Below, piece after piece: positions 4,703-22,247 of a stretch of DNA of 46,244 nucleotides. Both the position numbers and the translations under genes were made by a program. Source of the DNA: a virus; the IMG/VR virus record IMGVR_UViG_3300009420_000019, positions 1-46,244 of that record. The stretch is one strand, 5' to 3'. The number at the start of each line of letters is the position of its first letter. Positions within the stretch are counted from its first letter, which is position 1. The notes beneath the pieces are model-generated. The model searched no databases, was not told the DNA's origin, and saw only the letters and a list, made by a program, of their open reading frames with translations.

Positions 4703-5470
4703 ATGAAAGTAGCTATCGTTGGGTATGGATTTGTAGGACAAGCAACAGAATACTTTCTGAAATCTTGGTTGGTTGAAAAACTAGAAATAGAGATACATGA
4801 TCCTGTTAAAGGTTACAATGTAACTGATTGGGATAATATTGAATATTCTTTTATTTGTGTTCCAACTAACCTTATTGATGGAAAGTTAGACACTTCTATT
4901 ATAGATAATATACTAGAAACTTTACCCATCGAACAAGCCATAATTAGAAGTACTATTGGGCCTGATCAATGTATAAAATATGCTAACAAAGGACATGTAA
5001 TAATGCCAGAGTTTTTGAGAGAAAGACATTGGAAAGAAGATGTCGATGACTCAGATATTCCTATTGTTATAGGGTGTAATAATTGTGATAATATTTTACA
5101 ATGGATTACTAGGACTAAACATGCCTGGTATGGTAATAAAAAGAAAGTTGTAGTTTGTTCTCCTCTAGAGGCGTCGATGATTAAAATGGCTAGAAACGCA
5201 GCGTTAGCAGTAAAGGTGGGCTTGGCAAATGATTTCAATGAAATTTGCGACAGCCTTAATATGGATTATAGTGTTATTAAAAAGTTTATGCAGGAAGATA
5301 AAAATTTAGGTGGTACACATTGGGACGTACCCGGTCCTGATGGACTCATCGGTTTTGGTGGTACATGTCTCCCTAAGGACTTGACTCATGCATCTACACT
5401 ATGCTATAATACACTTAATATAATGAAAATAGCAATCGAAGCTAACACAAGCAGGAGAAATAATGAGTAA
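4703..5470 (+). CDS. UDP-glucose/GDP-mannose dehydrogenase-like, lacking the C-terminal domain
   Basis: A 255-residue protein with an N-terminal Rossmann NAD motif (GYGFVG, residues 7-12), the MPEFLRE segment (101-107), the central helix containing the conserved Lys (EASMIKMARNAALAVKV) and the catalytic Cys C222 in FGGTCLPKD. Full enzymes are about 390-450 residues; the C-terminal UDP-binding domain is absent and no frameshifted remainder follows, because uvsX begins within eight bases of the stop. The family oxidises NDP-sugars to uronates. Here the catalytic half is kept, so substrate may differ. The link with the glycosyltransferase and cytidylyltransferase is inference. Confidence 0.8.
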   Translation: MKVAIVGYGFVGQATEYFLKSWLVEKLEIEIHDPVKGYNVTDWDNIEYSFICVPTNLIDGKLDTSIIDNILETLPIEQAIIRSTIGPDQCIKYANKGHVIMPEFLRERHWKEDVDDSDIPIVIGCNNCDNILQWITRTKHAWYGNKKKVVVCSPLEASMIKMARNAALAVKVGLANDFNEICDSLNMDYSVIKKFMQEDKNLGGTHWDVPGPDGLIGFGGTCLPKDLTHASTLCYNTLNIMKIAIEANTSRRNNE

Positions 5471-6533: not shown

Positions 6534-6675
6534 TCGTTGCGAGACAAAAATAGATCTGAAGGCAGACAAAGCATATTGCTTTCATACTCCTGAAGGAGAG
6601 ATGTATATTTGTGGACCGTGTGTAGCTATAGTTTATAACCAGCATATTAAGGATTTGCCACCGTATGAAGAATAG
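6496..6675 (+). CDS. Zinc-ribbon microprotein (59 aa)
   Basis: A 59-residue ORF in another frame starts inside the uvsX 3' end and ends inside the helicase gene start. It contains two Cys pairs, KCDRCETKID and YICGPCVAIVY, spaced as in a zinc ribbon, and ends PPYEE. The regular CxxC...CxxC design and its placement in an overlap chain make it credible. T4-like phages often have such small zinc proteins between uvsX and gene 41. Partner or nucleic-acid binding is unknown. The ribosome site is weak (AAAGAA). Confidence 0.65.
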   Translation: MRKTLTKHIPKCDRCETKIDLKADKAYCFHTPEGEMYICGPCVAIVYNQHIKDLPPYEE

Positions 6676-8041
6676 AATAGAACAAGTTATATTAGAAAAT
6701 CTGGTTAAAGACGACACCTATATCAGAAAGGTAATCCCTTTCCTTAAGGAAGAATATTTTTCAGCCCATGAGGATAGAAAAGTATTTAATATAATCTCAG
6801 ATTTTGTTACAAAATATAACAACCCACCTAGCAAGCAGGCTATTATACTTGCCCTAGGTGAGGATAAATCTCTTAACGATGAAAGCTACAAACATTGTAT
6901 GGATGTGGTTAATGATTTGAATGGTACTGTGGTTAACTTGGAATGGCTTATTGATGAGACTGAGAAGTTTTGTAAGGATAAAGCATTGTACAATAGTATT
7001 ATGGAAAGCATACAGATCATAGACGGTAAGAGTACTACTCACACAGCAGATGCTTTACCTCAGATTTTATCAGAGGCATTGTCTGTAGGATTTGATACTA
7101 ACATCGGACATGACTTTATTGAAGATGCAGAAGGTAGGTATGAATATTATCACAGGCTAGAAGAGAAGGTAGAGTTTGACTTAGATATGTTTAATAGGAT
7201 AACAGACGGTGGATTGTCTAACAAAACATTAAACATAGCACTAGCAGGCACGGGAGTAGGTAAGTCCCTGTTTATGTGTCATATGGCATCAGCGGCAATC
7301 TCAAAGGGTAAGAATGTACTCTATATTACACTAGAGATGTCAGAGGAAAGGATCGCAGAACGTATAGACGCTAACATGATGAATATACCTATTGGTGATT
7401 TGAAGGATTTATCTAAGCAGATGTTTGATGATAGGATTAAAAAAATTAATGATAAGATACAAGGTAGACTTATTGTTAAGGAATATCCTACAGCATCAGC
7501 ACATAGTGGACACTTTAAGGCATTAATAAATGAATTAAAACTAAAGAGAAACTTCTCTGCAGATATTATTTTTATTGACTACTTGAATATTTGTTCTAGT
7601 AGCCGATTTAAACCTGGCAGTAGCGCTAACTCTTATACTATTATTAAGAGCATCGCGGAAGAGCTTAGAGGTTTGGCAGTAGAGCAAGACGTTCCTATTG
7701 TAAGTGCTACACAGACAACAAGGGGTGGTTACGATAACAGCGATGTCTCACTAACAGATACTTCTGAGAGTTTTGGACTCCCTGCTACAGCAGACTTAAT
7801 GTTTGCTATTATAAGTAATGAGGAGTTAGAGAATATGGGACAGCTAATGATTAAACAGTTGAAGAATAGATATGCAGATCCTACAACTAACAAAAGATTT
7901 ATGATAGGGGTAGATAGGCCTAGGATGAAATTGTTTGACTTAGACGAATCTGCACAACAGCAGTTAACTGATGCGAATATTGAAATGCCAGTATTCGATC
8001 GTGGGAAAACAGAAGGAAATTACAATGATTTTAAATTTTAA
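6665..8041 (+). CDS. 41: Replicative DNA helicase (T4 gp41 / DnaB-like)
   Basis: A 458-residue DnaB-type helicase: N-terminal helical primase-interaction domain, then the RecA-like motor with Walker A GTGVGKS (residues 195-201), Walker B IIFIDYLNI (about 295-303) and a Q-containing motif 3 region (VSATQTTRGG). It unwinds the lagging-strand template 5'-3' as a hexamer and partners the gp61-type primase encoded at 26681. Unlike T4, where 41 and 61 are near each other, primase is about 19 kb away here. Overlaps the zinc microprotein by 11 bases. Confidence 0.95.
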   Translation: MKNRIEQVILENLVKDDTYIRKVIPFLKEEYFSAHEDRKVFNIISDFVTKYNNPPSKQAIILALGEDKSLNDESYKHCMDVVNDLNGTVVNLEWLIDETEKFCKDKALYNSIMESIQIIDGKSTTHTADALPQILSEALSVGFDTNIGHDFIEDAEGRYEYYHRLEEKVEFDLDMFNRITDGGLSNKTLNIALAGTGVGKSLFMCHMASAAISKGKNVLYITLEMSEERIAERIDANMMNIPIGDLKDLSKQMFDDRIKKINDKIQGRLIVKEYPTASAHSGHFKALINELKLKRNFSADIIFIDYLNICSSSRFKPGSSANSYTIIKSIAEELRGLAVEQDVPIVSATQTTRGGYDNSDVSLTDTSESFGLPATADLMFAIISNEELENMGQLMIKQLKNRYADPTTNKRFMIGVDRPRMKLFDLDESAQQQLTDANIEMPVFDRGKTEGNYNDFKF

Positions 8042-13504: not shown

Positions 13505-14234
13505 ATTAACTTTCGGTTTCACATACTTTGACGAGCCCGACAGACTGCGCGAACAGATAGCGCAATGGGAACATTACAGTCAAGGATGTGATATAGTCCT
13601 CGTAGACGATGGCTCCGAACAAACTTCTGCAATGGAAGTTATTGGCGATTGGCGGCCTCCAGAGTGGGGTCCAACGCTACAAGTTTGGAGAGTTACAGAG
13701 AACCTAGGGTTTAATAGTCATGGCTGTAGAAATTTAATAGCTACAGTTGCCCCAACAGAATGGATACAATTTGCAGATATAGATATGATTATCCCCCCAG
13801 GGGAAGTTGCTAGGTTCAGACAAATACGTCCTACTCCTAATAGTGTTTATCATCATATGAGTTATGCTAGGTGGCAACAAAAGCTATTTAGACTAACGAG
13901 TGACACTAGATATTCAGGCCATTTGAATTGTTTTTTGATGTCTAAGACAATATTCTGGGAAGCTGGTGGGTATGACGAGTCCTTCACAGGACACCACCAC
14001 GGGGACAGAGAGTTTATGAATAGAGTAGCAAAATTAGATGTTTCTTTCAGAGACACGCCTATTATTATAGACCATGTCCGTGCTGGAAAGCATGGTAGCG
14101 TAAACAACGCAGTAGATAAGACAGTATATACTAGTGAAGATCATTTTTACGCACCACTAGCACCACCAGAAGTAGAGAAATTACGAGGAACAAAAACAGC
14201 TCGGCTGGACTTTCCGTATGTTCAGGAGTTATAA
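13476..14234 (+). CDS. Family 2-type glycosyltransferase
   Basis: About 252 residues with a GT-A fold: FGFTYFDEPDRLREQIAQW (nucleotide-binding strand/helix), DIVLVDDGS near residue 45, NLGFNSHGCRNLI, and the metal-binding FADIDMIIPP. A later GHHHGDREFMNRVAKL segment fits the acceptor-side ED-like helix. Such enzymes transfer a sugar from an NDP-sugar, in phages often to DNA, LPS or virion protein. Start is uncertain (13446 or 13476; neither has a ribosome site) and both lie inside the previous gene. The last codons overlap a late promoter. Confidence 0.85.
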   Translation: MSKTSREPSRLTFGFTYFDEPDRLREQIAQWEHYSQGCDIVLVDDGSEQTSAMEVIGDWRPPEWGPTLQVWRVTENLGFNSHGCRNLIATVAPTEWIQFADIDMIIPPGEVARFRQIRPTPNSVYHHMSYARWQQKLFRLTSDTRYSGHLNCFLMSKTIFWEAGGYDESFTGHHHGDREFMNRVAKLDVSFRDTPIIIDHVRAGKHGSVNNAVDKTVYTSEDHFYAPLAPPEVEKLRGTKTARLDFPYVQEL

Positions 14235-16178: not shown

Positions 16179-16486
16179 TATTAATAAAATTAAGTATCGC
16201 TTGTATAACAGCAGTTTTTGGAAACGCTTTTAGTAAGTGGTTCCTAAGTACAAAGGCAGGAGTATGGTTCCAGGTACATTTGGATAACTTTATGTTTTAC
16301 CTAAGCGAAAAATACGACATAGAAATAGGCAAAAAAGAGGCAAAGTGGAGACAAGATTATCCATTACTTGCCACAAGAATAGACAAGTTAGAGGCACAAG
16401 CACACCCTGCTATAGAGAAGGGTAATGCTAAAGAGTTGGCGGAGAGGATAAGTAAACTAGAAAAGAAAAGGTATAAAAATGAGTAA
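16172..16486 (+). CDS. Membrane-anchored hypothetical protein (104 aa)
   Basis: Start 16172 is chosen over 16166 because AGAGGTGG gives proper spacing only for the second ATG. One N-terminal transmembrane segment (MLILIKLSIACITAVFGNAF) is followed by a helical, charged region ending in a coiled-coil-like tail (IDKLEAQAHPAIEKGNAKEL). Lies immediately upstream of the spanin pair, overlapping it by eight bases, so a role in lysis is possible, for example as a holin partner; a single membrane segment is seen. Confidence 0.6.
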   Translation: MLILIKLSIACITAVFGNAFSKWFLSTKAGVWFQVHLDNFMFYLSEKYDIEIGKKEAKWRQDYPLLATRIDKLEAQAHPAIEKGNAKELAERISKLEKKRYKNE

Positions 16487-16850
16487 AGTATTCTTTGGAA
16501 TGTTCCTGATGATGACGTTAGCATTTGGCACTTATTATTATTTTACTGAAAAGAAGATAACACGACTAACCGAGAACAACGCAGCGTTATCAATCGTTGC
16601 ACAAACTAATCAGGATACGATAGATACGTTATCCGACGACAGAGAACGTTTTCAATCGTTATCAAATGAGCTAAATGTAAAATTACAGGCTTCAGAGGCT
16701 TATGGTAGTGAACTGTCGAAAAAACTAAGAGAACACAATTTAACAGCACTAACCCTAAGAAAGCCAGGGTTAATTGAAACGAGGGTAAACAATGCCGTAC
16801 AAAAGCTTACTACAGAGCTCGAGTCTATTACTTCTACTGATAGTCAGTAG
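16479..16850 (+). CDS. Probable i-spanin (Rz-like)
   Basis: A 123-residue protein with one N-terminal transmembrane helix (residues 4-22, VFFGMFLMMTLAFGTYYYF) and a long periplasmic coiled coil (about 24-115, e.g. ITRLTENNAALSIVAQ). The downstream lipoprotein gene starts inside its 3' end in a different frame. This is the Rz/Rz1 architecture: the inner-membrane subunit that fuses inner and outer membranes at the end of lysis. Identification is by architecture and gene overlap; spanins rarely share sequence. Confidence 0.78.
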   Translation: MSKVFFGMFLMMTLAFGTYYYFTEKKITRLTENNAALSIVAQTNQDTIDTLSDDRERFQSLSNELNVKLQASEAYGSELSKKLREHNLTALTLRKPGLIETRVNNAVQKLTTELESITSTDSQ

Positions 16851-17190
16851 TGGTTGTAGCTTACTTCAAACTCCACCACAGATTGAAGTACAAACCAAAT
16901 TTATAGAAAGAGCAATTCCTATACAACCTAGGCCACGAGGAGTTTCGTTATACCCTACGAAATACTGGGCGGTAACAGAAGCTAACTTTGAAGAGTTTAA
17001 AGAAAAATTTACAACTACTCACGCAGACATGGTATTCTTTGCACTTAGCATCCCAGACTATGAGAACCTGTCATTAAACATGGCAGAGTTAGTCCGTTAT
17101 ATAGAACAGCAAAAGACAGTTATCGTATATTACGAAGATGCTATTGCTAATAAACCTAAAGAACCAGTAGATCCGGAAGTAAAAGATTAA
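16792..17190 (+). CDS. Probable o-spanin (Rz1-like lipoprotein)
   Basis: A 132-residue protein with a lipoprotein signal: MPYKSLLQSSSLLLLLIVSS then GC with the lipidated Cys at C22 and Ser at +2, which favours outer-membrane sorting. A Pro-rich stretch follows (TPPQ, IQPRPRG), as in many Rz1 proteins, then a helical C-terminus. It overlaps the i-spanin gene by 59 bases in another frame. It is longer than classical Rz1 (about 60 residues). No endolysin gene is seen nearby. Confidence 0.78.
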   Translation: MPYKSLLQSSSLLLLLIVSSGCSLLQTPPQIEVQTKFIERAIPIQPRPRGVSLYPTKYWAVTEANFEEFKEKFTTTHADMVFFALSIPDYENLSLNMAELVRYIEQQKTVIVYYEDAIANKPKEPVDPEVKD

Positions 17191-17195
17191 CCGTG

Positions 17196-17203
17196 TATAA
17201 ATA
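17196..17203 (+). promoter_or_regulatory. T4-type late promoter
   Basis: TATAAATA in the 34-base gap after the o-spanin gene. The leader of about 20 bases contains AAGGGAGAG as ribosome site for the GTG-started gene at 17225. This is a normal leadered late promoter, in contrast to the one at 14230. Confidence 0.7.
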
Positions 17204-17224
17204 AGAGTAAGGGAGAGATTAAAA

Positions 17225-18277
17225 GTGCCAGTAACAGACATCGAAAAATCAATAAAACTTATGAGTGAGGACTTAGCTTCTGGTAGGCCAGCTAAAAAAG
17301 CTTTGGTGAAACCAATGGGCGACACACATAACGACAATTCAAAAAACTTTTCAGTAAAGCCACTAAAATCCCTTAAGATGAAAGAAGAAAACATCACAGA
17401 GCTAGAAACTAAGACACTATCCAATTATGTAAGAAAAGCAGTATCACCTCTAAGTAAAAAATCAGTAGGTAATTTGGCTTCTAAAGGAGCTCACAAATTA
17501 GCACACTCAGATGATTTTGACGCAGGCGAGAAAGAAGACATGAAAAGTGTCCAGAGAGCAAAGGGTGTTATTAGAGCAACTAAGAAATTAGCAAAAAGAG
17601 CCACTCAAAATGAAGATTTTAATGATAACGAAAAAAGGCGAGCAAAAGCACTAGCAGGTAGGAAGAAAGCTGTAGTACACAGCACAAAGCCAGACAGTCT
17701 TAAAACAGTTAAGATTAAATACAACGGTCCACCTATTAAAACAAAAGTAACAGACATCGGCCCTGGTGGAAAAGAAACCGTCAGAAAAGATTGGAGTGAA
17801 GGCTACAATATTAAAGATATGGCAGCGGACTTAAAACCTAAATATAAACCTAGTAATAAGCCTATACCTAAGCATTTACAAAATAAAATTGCATCTCAGT
17901 TCAAAGATCCAAAAGATAAACGAATTGGCGAAGACATCCGTGCAAGACAAGTAGGAATAATGAAGAATTTAAAAACAGAGTCTTCTAATGATAATTACGA
18001 TCCAGTTGTTTCAGATTTAAGAACTAAAGAGAAACTTAAGAAAGCAGGCCTACCGAAGGAATCACCTAAGGTAAATGAAGCAAACCATATTGTATTCGAT
18101 TTAAATAATATGGAAGAAAGTTTAGCCAATCTAGTAAGGCGCGGAGTTGATAAGGTTGTCAAAGCAGTTGATTCAGCCAACGAGAAACAACCAGTTTCAC
18201 CTAGTAAGAAGAAGCTTTACAATCCAGTCTCAGGCGAAAATATTAAAAAACGTGTGGACTCTCAAAAAAAAAGGTAG
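17225..18277 (+). CDS. Lys-rich virion-type protein, N-terminal part of a frameshifted gene
   Basis: A 350-residue protein with a GTG start and strong ribosome site. It is very basic and has a helical module around residues 60-125 (LSNYVRKAVSPLSKKS, SVQRAKGVIRATKKLAKRA) of a kind seen repeatedly in structural proteins of T4-like marine phages, plus a second similar segment near 293 (MEESLANLVRRGVDKVVKAV). It ends just after an A9 run, whereas the -1 frame stays open into the next ORF. It is probably the front of one 843-residue protein. Late promoter upstream. Exact virion role unknown. Confidence 0.7.
   Translation: MPVTDIEKSIKLMSEDLASGRPAKKALVKPMGDTHNDNSKNFSVKPLKSLKMKEENITELETKTLSNYVRKAVSPLSKKSVGNLASKGAHKLAHSDDFDAGEKEDMKSVQRAKGVIRATKKLAKRATQNEDFNDNEKRRAKALAGRKKAVVHSTKPDSLKTVKIKYNGPPIKTKVTDIGPGGKETVRKDWSEGYNIKDMAADLKPKYKPSNKPIPKHLQNKIASQFKDPKDKRIGEDIRARQVGIMKNLKTESSNDNYDPVVSDLRTKEKLKKAGLPKESPKVNEANHIVFDLNNMEESLANLVRRGVDKVVKAVDSANEKQPVSPSKKKLYNPVSGENIKKRVDSQKKR
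18264..18272 (+). other. A9 slippery run: probable -1 frameshift site (or homopolymer error)
   Basis: Nine A residues precede GGTAG. In frame 0 the sequence reads TCT CAA AAA AAA AGG TAG and stops at 18277. Slipping back one base gives AAG GTA GTA ATA CCT and continues open to 19755. Poly-A runs allow ribosomal or transcriptional slippage, and they are also a common site of sequencing indels. Confidence 0.65.
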
Positions 18278-18360
18278 TAATACCTAAGTCCGCTCATAAG
18301 GACTTAAAAGCACTCTCCAAAAAAGACGATCATAATTGGTGGAAACACCAAGACGCTTCG

Positions 18361-19755
18361 ATGCAGAAAGAAAATGTAGCTGCAATGTCGGCAGGCAACG
18401 TTCCTAAACCACAAGATAGATTGAAAGCTGGGATAAAAGTAGACAGAAGTAAATTCAAATCTATTAAGGATTACAAAGCTTCCTTCAATAAAAAGATAAG
18501 CTACGATTCGTTAACTACTCAGAAAGAAGGCTACTGGGACGATCGCAATGCCAAACAAAAAGAAACGTTAGCAAAACACGAAAAACGAATGATAGACTCA
18601 GCAAGGAAGTCTGTTAAAAAGAATCCCTCCCCGGTGCCTATTAAAGAAGACGAACGTTACGATCCAACTCCAGGCGGTATGGAATGGGGAACACCTCAAG
18701 GCACAGCATATTTCAAATCTCTAACACCAGGCGAAGGGAAAGTATCTAAACCTCTAAAAACATTGCCTATTAAGGCTAGAAGGCCTCAAGATGAGATTGG
18801 TACAAAGATAACAGAAAAACTGTTAAACAAAAAGAAGAAGTTGATATCACCTCATATGGGGGACATGGATCCTCTTCACCAGGACGCCCCTGTTGTTAAA
18901 GGATACAATGAAACATTTGACTTGATGCGATATGCAGATCCTGAAAACTTTGTAGGTTACGATCACATTGAACCTAATCAAGCAAACCACAGTAAACACG
19001 AGTACCCTGTTAACAATGAGAAAGAGACACATGATACAGGTGATGAAGGCCATTGGTTAACAGGTAAAGACGGCGAGTGGTATATAGAACAAATAGATGT
19101 CGACGAGTTAGATAAAGCAGCAGACAACTTCACATTCAAAGATGCTCTTAATCTAGGTCTTTATGACGAAGAAGAACTAGAAGATGAAGACTTCGATGGC
19201 GATCCAAACAATGATGTAGCTATACACGAAGTACTATCTGTACAAGGACGTATGAAAAGACGTTTTAACGCGAGACGTAACAAACAAAAATTAAAAGTAG
19301 CAAGACGTATTGCTCTAAGACGTGGTTCAACTCCAGACAGATTGAAAAGAAGAGCTACTCGTGGTGCGAGACTTATGGTATACAAACGATTGCTCAGAGG
19401 AAGAGATAGAGGATCTTTACCACCTGCTGAGAAGGCAAGGGTAGAGAAAATGATTACTAGATTCCAACCATTAGTTAATCGTATATCAATTAAACTATTA
19501 CCTCAGATGAGAAAGAACGAAATTAAACGTTTAGGAAGTAGAGGTAAGGCAGGGGCTACTACTAGTAAGAAGTACAAAGCAGCTAAAGCAATACGTGGAG
19601 CAGCTAGTCAGAAGGCTAAGAGATATAAAATTAAGAAGCCTGGCAAGTTTAAAGCACCTAAGGCAAAAGCATTCAAGTCACGAATTAAATCTGGTGGTCC
19701 AACAATTAAAAAGGCTTCCAAGGCTTATAAAGCATTTAGTTATTCAGTAGGTTAA
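18361..19755 (+). CDS. Basic virion-type protein, C-terminal part of the frameshifted gene
   Basis: 464 residues from the first ATG, but that ATG has no ribosome site, and its frame is open upstream to 18271 (KVVIPKSAHKDLKALSKKDD), joining the previous ORF by a -1 slip. The middle is acidic (DEEELEDEDFDGDPNND). The C-terminal third is strikingly basic: SVQGRMKRRFNARRNKQK, TPDRLKRRATRGARLMVYKR, and a KYKAAKAIRGAASQKAKRY-type tail. This Arg/Lys-rich helical module recurs at the end of structural or prohead-type proteins in marine T4-like phages, and may bind DNA inside the head. Role inferred only. Confidence 0.68.
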   Translation: MQKENVAAMSAGNVPKPQDRLKAGIKVDRSKFKSIKDYKASFNKKISYDSLTTQKEGYWDDRNAKQKETLAKHEKRMIDSARKSVKKNPSPVPIKEDERYDPTPGGMEWGTPQGTAYFKSLTPGEGKVSKPLKTLPIKARRPQDEIGTKITEKLLNKKKKLISPHMGDMDPLHQDAPVVKGYNETFDLMRYADPENFVGYDHIEPNQANHSKHEYPVNNEKETHDTGDEGHWLTGKDGEWYIEQIDVDELDKAADNFTFKDALNLGLYDEEELEDEDFDGDPNNDVAIHEVLSVQGRMKRRFNARRNKQKLKVARRIALRRGSTPDRLKRRATRGARLMVYKRLLRGRDRGSLPPAEKARVEKMITRFQPLVNRISIKLLPQMRKNEIKRLGSRGKAGATTSKKYKAAKAIRGAASQKAKRYKIKKPGKFKAPKAKAFKSRIKSGGPTIKKASKAYKAFSYSVG

Positions 19756-20672: not shown

Positions 20673-22247
20673 ATGAACCACGGAATTATATTAGGTGGTG
20701 TGGTTGATTATTATTATGATTCAATCAAACGAGCACCCGGCGCACATAAGATAGCAACACATCTACGGAGAGAAGGGTGGGACGTTGAAGTTCTCGACTT
20801 TGTTCAATCATGGACAGTAGAAGAGCTTAAAGAATTTACTAGACAAAGAGTATCTAAGGATACAAAGTTCCTAGGACTTAGTGCTACATTCTCAATACGA
20901 TTTAAAACATTATATGAATTTACCTATTGGTTTAAAGAAGAATATCCAGACATTCTAATCATAGGTGGCTCTCAAGCATTCCATAATTGTGAAGGTTTTC
21001 CATTAGACTACATGGTACATGGTTATGGAGAGTTAGCTATGAGTGCTATTCTTAGTGGTAATGTTAAATATACAGAACATAAATGGCTAAACGGAAACTC
21101 TTTTAGGCGCGTAGACGCTACCCATGACTACATGGCTGCTAGGATGAAGAACTTGTCCACGCATTACGAAGATAGAGATCATATACAGCCACAGGAGGTC
21201 CTTACAGTAGAGTTTGGGCGTGGTTGTATATTTAACTGCCACTTTTGTACCCTCACATATAGGAACATTAAGGAAGATCACAGCAGGTCTGAGGACAATT
21301 TATATACAGAGATGTTAGAGAACTATGAGAAATGGGGCACAACTAATTACTCTATATCAGATGAGACGGTTAACGATTACACAGAAAAATTAGAAAGGTT
21401 TGCAGGAGCTATAAAGAGACTCCCGTTCAAACCTAATTGTGCAGGTTATATTCGTGGCGACTTGTTAGTATGTAAACCTAAAGACTGGCAAATGATACAT
21501 GACATAGGGTTAAACTCTCAGTTTTACGGTATAGAATCATTTCACACACCTTCCGCAAAAGCTGTAGGTAAGGGTATGCACTCTGGTAGACTACAAGATG
21601 GTTTACTAGCATATAAAGAGTGGGCTAGAGAAAGAGGCCACTTCCAGGCGCATTTAAGTCTGATAGCAGGCCTGCCACATGAGACTTTAGATTCATTAAG
21701 AGAAACAAAAAGATGGATAGTTAATAATTGGGACGGACAAACATCTCAGATTATGCCTTTATGGATTCCAGATAAGACAAGACAGTATGAGGAACAGAGC
21801 AGATTTGCAATGGACCCTCAGAAGTATGGCTATCACAAAACTACAATGGCAGAGTGTAATAATAACAACTCACCTTGGGAAGACGGGCCAAGAGGACAGT
21901 TTAGAAAATTGTATGAGGGGTTAGTTAAACGTGAATCAAACAATGATGAGATAGTATACAATACAGAAGACAGCACATTCCAAGAAGAAATGTCTTTTAT
22001 GAACTGGAAGTCAGATACATTAGATTTATATAAAGTGTTATCATACTTAGAACATGAGTGGTATGATAACGATTTTACAGGTGGGAATCAACCCCCATTA
22101 CCATTTTCATATCACAACTGGTTAATAGACCCTAAGCATAAATGGGAAGATATGTCTAAACGAATGGTTGAACTACCACCACCCGTAGAGTATGCTAAAA
22201 AATTCATTGAAGATTATAAAATTAAAAAATTAAGATCAACTGTATAG
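20673..22247 (+). CDS. Radical SAM protein with B12-binding-like N-terminal domain
   Basis: 524 residues. The radical SAM cluster motif CIFNCHFC (C185, C189, C192) binds a [4Fe-4S] cluster that cleaves S-adenosylmethionine. The N-terminal 170 residues have the Rossmann-like layout of cobalamin-binding radical SAM enzymes (FLGLSATFS, ILIIGGSQAF, YMVHGYGELAM), though no clear DxHxxG cobalamin-ligand motif is seen. Later segments (AHLSLIAGLPHET) match the SAM barrel. Substrate unknown: methylation or ring chemistry on a nucleotide, peptide or lipid are options. Expressed late, beside an SGNH-like protein and virion genes. Confidence 0.88.
   Translation: MNHGIILGGVVDYYYDSIKRAPGAHKIATHLRREGWDVEVLDFVQSWTVEELKEFTRQRVSKDTKFLGLSATFSIRFKTLYEFTYWFKEEYPDILIIGGSQAFHNCEGFPLDYMVHGYGELAMSAILSGNVKYTEHKWLNGNSFRRVDATHDYMAARMKNLSTHYEDRDHIQPQEVLTVEFGRGCIFNCHFCTLTYRNIKEDHSRSEDNLYTEMLENYEKWGTTNYSISDETVNDYTEKLERFAGAIKRLPFKPNCAGYIRGDLLVCKPKDWQMIHDIGLNSQFYGIESFHTPSAKAVGKGMHSGRLQDGLLAYKEWARERGHFQAHLSLIAGLPHETLDSLRETKRWIVNNWDGQTSQIMPLWIPDKTRQYEEQSRFAMDPQKYGYHKTTMAECNNNNSPWEDGPRGQFRKLYEGLVKRESNNDEIVYNTEDSTFQEEMSFMNWKSDTLDLYKVLSYLEHEWYDNDFTGGNQPPLPFSYHNWLIDPKHKWEDMSKRMVELPPPVEYAKKFIEDYKIKKLRSTV

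Follow-up and report, generated by a model that had tools for sequence, protein, structure and literature searches.

Organization of the locus

The stretch of DNA analysed here (the window) is a 46-kb viral contig (46,244 nt, IMGVR_UViG_3300009420_000019), whose gene order parallels that of Pelagibacter phage HTVC008M. The surroundings of the locus under study are as follows.

1684: DNA polymerase (family matches)
5463: UvsX (family matches)
6665-8041: helicase (family matches)
14243: DUF6267 (family matches)
15402: cytidyltransferase (family matches)
16479-17190: overlapping Rz-like spanin gene pair (starts 16479 and 16792), directly 5′ of the locus
20673-22247: radical-SAM protein with a B12-binding-like domain (no match by tblastn in the phage collection)
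26681-27730: primase (family matches)
27903 and 31609: ribonucleotide reductase (family matches)

A 255-aa ORF at 4703-5470 also matched UDP-glucose/GDP-mannose dehydrogenase, mainly over the central domain, and is possibly truncated. A T4 Gp23 capsid gene is present on the 170-kb contig of a relative.

Immediately after the spanin pair lie two ORFs that meet, out of frame, at a run of nine A residues:

17196-17203, plus strand: TATAAATA, a match to the -10 element of T4-type late promoters, just 5′ of ORF1
17210-17217, plus strand: AGGGAGAG, likely ribosome binding site for ORF1 (GTG at 17225)
17225-18277, plus strand: ORF1 (0 frame), GTG start, 350 aa, the predicted short product, a lysine-rich mosaic protein
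18264-18272, plus strand: A9 slippery run, unique in the record and kept across the clade
18265-18271, plus strand: -1 heptamer A_AAA_AAA in 0-frame phase, within A9
18275-18277, plus strand: 0-frame stop TAG, one codon past A9 (six of seven lineages have TAG or TAA at this position; in L039 the stop comes later)
18271-19755, plus strand: ORF2 (-1 frame), 494 codons counted from the slip, encoding the C-terminal portion of the predicted 843-residue product
18361-18363, plus strand: first ATG of ORF2, its Met conserved in the clade
19216-19539, plus strand: predicted basic all-helical C-terminal domain, conserved and phrog_23027-like (P0002 316-423)

The initial annotation had described an ORF that ends five bases after nine A residues, which is exact, and a -1 frame open from the run to 19755, which was confirmed by translation of that frame. 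The codons around the run read CAA AAA AAA AGG TAG in the 0 frame, and a -1 slip would join 349 and 494 residues, giving the 843-residue product proposed earlier. The slippery heptamer pattern X_XXY_YYZ is present at the junction as A_AAA_AAA in all lineages, a weak test since any A9 contains such a heptamer in any phase. A first-order Markov model predicts about one A9 per 46 kb; given its occurrence at the same place and with the same frame offset in all relatives, the run at the junction is best read as more than chance.

The ATG at 18361 had been described as lacking a ribosome site. The 20 nt 5′ of it (GGAAACACCAAGACGCTTCG) indeed hold no Shine-Dalgarno-like motif, none was found before the ORF2 ATG in five lineages, and no ATG, GTG or TTG occurs in the -1 frame between A9 and 18361. 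The residues before this ATG, which had been judged coding-like, include the conserved peptide IPKSAxKDL..NWWxHQD in the -1 frame, and the 30 codons from the run to the ATG differ between the window and its relative L005 by seven synonymous and two nonsynonymous changes. By this measure these codons evolve as -1-frame coding sequence. The peptide, the synonymous bias and the missing Shine-Dalgarno-like motif argue against two separate genes, with ORF2 starting at 18361 and the conserved stretch before it a relic or untranslated; that arrangement also gives no reason for A9 to persist as the only long run of the genome. It draws on the conserved Met at 18361 and on the own start of the C-terminal gene in L039 and L040-L043, and we regard it as improbable.

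Since TATAAATA stands at 17196, the gene is probably expressed late. The motif is strongly strand-biased in the window (11 on the plus strand and 1 on the minus strand) and in the 170-kb relative (40 and 7), where 13 nt separate it from the ATG of the corresponding gene. Similar motifs were found at 14230, 20660, 33997 and 45293 of the window and in the 170-kb relative (L018-L026), several of them about 13 nt before an ATG. At this spacing transcripts are expected to start at or next to the start codon, and leaderless late mRNAs from such motifs are possible.

Conservation of the junction among relatives

Searches brought in twelve further loci of the same clade. With near-identical copies counted once, these and the window (W) form seven lineages: W/L002/L003/L004, L005, L006, L007, L008/L009/L010, L033/L037 and L039. 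Over the -1 part the other six lineages share 75, 70, 66, 66, 58 and 49% amino acid identity with the window, and no match was found in bacterial or archaeal genomes. All 12 related loci have at least nine consecutive A and two ORFs in different frames. The separate assemblies W, L002, L003 and L004 all carry A9, as do L006-L010, L033/L037 and L039. In L005, which is 71% identical to the window in the best segment, the run is an A10 that arose by substitution rather than insertion, so that the offset is unchanged. The codons flanking the run vary (CAA or GAA before; AGG, AGA or AAT after). In six of the seven lineages a single codon separates the run from the 0-frame stop, and the -1 frame leads on, at the same offset, into the same C-terminal ORF. 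The overlapping ORFs are conserved with a single shift direction, -1 in every lineage.

The initial annotation had left the choice between programmed slippage and a homopolymer error, and the conserved run and offset speak for the former. Homopolymers are error-prone, and an assembly artefact would make the true gene a single frame; the same offset in separate samples and in divergent relatives, one with A10 by substitution, refutes this explanation, to which we assign virtually no probability. Run lengths that would restore one frame had been proposed as something to look for. Exact searches of the viral collection found no A8 or A10 version of the site, which counts against both an assembly error and a phase-variable gene, switched when replication slips on the run. 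A homopolymer within a mosaic protein gene would suit such a switch, but none of the twelve related loci has the two halves in one frame and four near-identical assemblies share the same state. Phase variation was rejected on these grounds and is very improbable.

In a tree of the C-terminal domain all A9 loci form one clade (support 98/96). Relatives with one uninterrupted gene, another outcome considered at the outset, do not occur within it; in the sister clade (L044-L063) the domain does sit on a single continuous gene, about 620-810 codons long, which lacks an A run and has a kinase/zeta-like N part. L040-L043 have a C-terminal gene that starts independently. Relatives with two separate genes had also been envisaged. 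Most of the clade does not fit this description, and L039 fits it in part: the A9 is kept, and the -1 frame stays open for 49 codons, up to a TAG in overlap with the start ATG of the C-terminal gene (L039:2943-3099). This locus shows that the run can be retained even without the fusion. Slippage there could extend the protein by a small module and deliver ribosomes to the following start, and the layout suggests frameshift-coupled reinitiation. A second A run, an A8, lies inside the -1 ORF of L033/L037 (L033:3400-3407), where other members avoid such runs.

RNA structure downstream of the run

Downstream RNA structure is the usual stimulator of -1 ribosomal frameshifting, though it is not strictly required. 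Three elements were predicted 3′ of the run:

18273-18284, plus strand: hairpin GGUA-GUAA-UACC, directly 3′ of the A run (W, L007 and L008 have a GNRA loop; L005 and L006 do not form the hairpin)
18285-18306, plus strand: stem-loop UAAGUCC(8 nt)GGACUUA, candidate frameshift stimulator
18336-18351, plus strand: stem-loop UUGGUG-GAAA-CACCAA, stem invariant in five lineages

The last of these is far from the slip site, and its invariance may only reflect the WWxHQ peptide. For six of the seven lineages, which are related to one another, the 42 nt past the run exceeded synonymous recodings in stability (z -5.2 in W, then -2.7, -2.9, -3.1, -1.7 and -2.3; L008 is marginal, with 7% of recodings as stable). 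None of 1004 other positions in the window reached a z of -5 or beyond. In L039 the structure is absent (z 0). Covariation gave pair counts not above shuffled or slid controls, so that the case for structure comes from the recoding test. The absence of structure and the early closure of the -1 frame in L039, together with the covariation result, are among the points that stand against a programmed frameshift.

Avoidance of long A and T runs

In each of seven records scanned (up to 170 kb), neither strand has an A9 or T9 other than this run (the A10 of L005 counts twice in a pattern search), and in the 170-kb T4-like relative it is the sole run of at least eight A or T. Within the ORFs of this relative, synonymous shuffling predicted 87-90 runs of at least seven A, 31.9 of at least eight and 14.2 of at least nine, against 9, 1 and 1 observed; for runs of at least seven T, 1 was observed and about 21 were expected. 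Runs of at least seven A were depleted equally in all three phases (0.07-0.09 of expectation). This equality and the depletion of T runs point to a genome that avoids slippage by the polymerase rather than by the ribosome. The heptamer A_AAA_AAG, on the other side, stands at 0.15 of expectation in the slippery phase and at 0.78 and 0.42 in the other phases. HTVC008M shows no run of at least nine A in ORFs of at least 100 aa, against 19 expected; since this phage also avoids long runs, background avoidance is general, with the single run exempt in this clade.

These counts bear on which machine slips. RNA polymerase may slip on A9, so that some mRNAs gain one A (or lose two) and normal translation yields the long protein. 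This explanation differs from ribosomal slippage in who slips, not in whether the frameshift is programmed. As in transcriptional realignment, the junction has a conserved run of at least 8-9 A (12 of 12 loci) and runs are avoided elsewhere, here for A and T runs of at least seven in every phase; the run persists at nine or more in all seven lineages despite varied flanking codons, including L039 with no structure. Nine is the usual length at which selection against transcriptional slippage appears in many bacterial genomes (PMC1088944), and tssM1 offers a precedent, with 20-25% slippage at an A11 (PMC4256274). Against it, a polymerase-only mechanism would not need the downstream structure that in six of seven lineages exceeds what synonymous recoding predicts, and the invariable -1 direction speaks for the ribosome under the rule that a single conserved direction favours ribosomal frameshifting (PMC3711429), one clade being a small sample. 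Transcriptional slippage is thus a serious contender, with somewhat less than an even chance.

Ribosomal -1 slippage on A_AAA_AAA, helped by structured downstream RNA, is slightly favoured, at roughly an even chance. It gains from the scarcity of A_AAA_AAG in the slippery phase, from the stable 42 nt and from the window z lying beyond all 1004 background positions. The two mechanisms are inseparable by sequence, and both could contribute.

Predicted protein products

The N part is rich in lysine (18%) and is a mosaic in which short modules recur in different order among relatives; the ORF1 product had no family match. In the N-terminal ORFs of the window (17225-18277), L033 (507-3065), L005, L006 and L039, which span 350 to 852 codons, lysine-rich modules are shuffled in order and number. 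The sole family match of the gene product is phrog_23027, a family of unknown function. The predicted structure of the -1 part is confident at about residues 315-425 only (mean pLDDT 58.8), and there the C-terminal domain is modelled as a basic helical bundle. This structure had no PDB match below E 0.001; its viral matches were uncharacterised or cytidyltransferase-linked phage proteins, as well as Sinorhizobium phage phiM12.

The initial annotation had called the ORFs virion-type, a label that finds no support, as no family with a virion function is among the matches of either product. T4 prohead-protease-like [LIVM]xE sites show a slight excess in the mosaic part of most members and a clear one in L033 alone (z 2.6). 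Any assignment to the head, to DNA handling or to the timing of lysis would be guesswork.

Discussion

Taken together, these results make it very probable that in a T4-like marine phage a late gene, split over two frames at A9, is joined by programmed -1 frameshifting. Probably one gene gives a short and a long protein. We infer that both are made and in what proportion: most expression would end at the stop just past the run, giving the 350-residue lysine-rich mosaic protein, and a fraction would slip one base back on the A run, giving the 843-residue protein with the conserved basic helical C-terminal domain. The assignment of the slip to ribosome or polymerase is likewise inferred.

The mechanism class is already known. 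In dnaX and IS3-type -1 ribosomal frameshifting (A_AAA_AAG, A_AAA_AAA) there is also an A-rich heptamer in the right phase, an early 0-frame stop, a downstream stem-loop and a pair of products with a common N terminus, the last two being predicted here. The present case differs in the gene, a phage late mosaic protein, and in a run of nine rather than seven, and no conserved upstream Shine-Dalgarno-like element that could act as a stimulator was found. Transcriptional realignment at A9-A11 (Thermus dnaX, Citrobacter tssM1, IS elements) likewise joins two ORFs through a long uninterrupted A run that is avoided elsewhere in the genome; our case adds the constant -1 direction and the downstream structure.

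Among tailed phages, the best-known programmed frameshifts are those of tail chaperones and of a few capsid or tail proteins. In lambda gpG/gpGT, the tail assembly chaperone, a -1 frameshift yields two late phage proteins, one short and one long, as predicted here, but our proteins are much larger and unrelated, and the gene lies beside spanins between the helicase and primase genes, not between tail tube and tape measure genes. HTVC008M carries the same C-terminal domain (AGE60476.1, 123 aa, about 30% identity) within the same order of DNA polymerase, UvsX, helicase, domain gene, primase and ribonucleotide reductase. There it is a stand-alone short gene with neither A run nor frameshift.

In the open-access literature we found no report of a frameshift in this gene family or in T4-like marine phages. 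Gene callers would split the gene in two and miss the 843-residue protein. It is also conceivable, if on balance doubtful, that the clade purges long A and T runs and spares the single A9, which would serve as a dedicated switch by transcriptional slippage and set the ratio of the two late mosaic protein forms; if so, a tailed phage would use programmed polymerase slippage in one of its genes. Whichever machine slips, the predicted frameshift affects a modular late gene, unannotated so far, in marine T4-like phages; it is fixed across the clade and marked by the only long homopolymer of the genome, and one retained A9 against genome-wide avoidance would make a clean natural case for telling ribosomal from transcriptional slippage.
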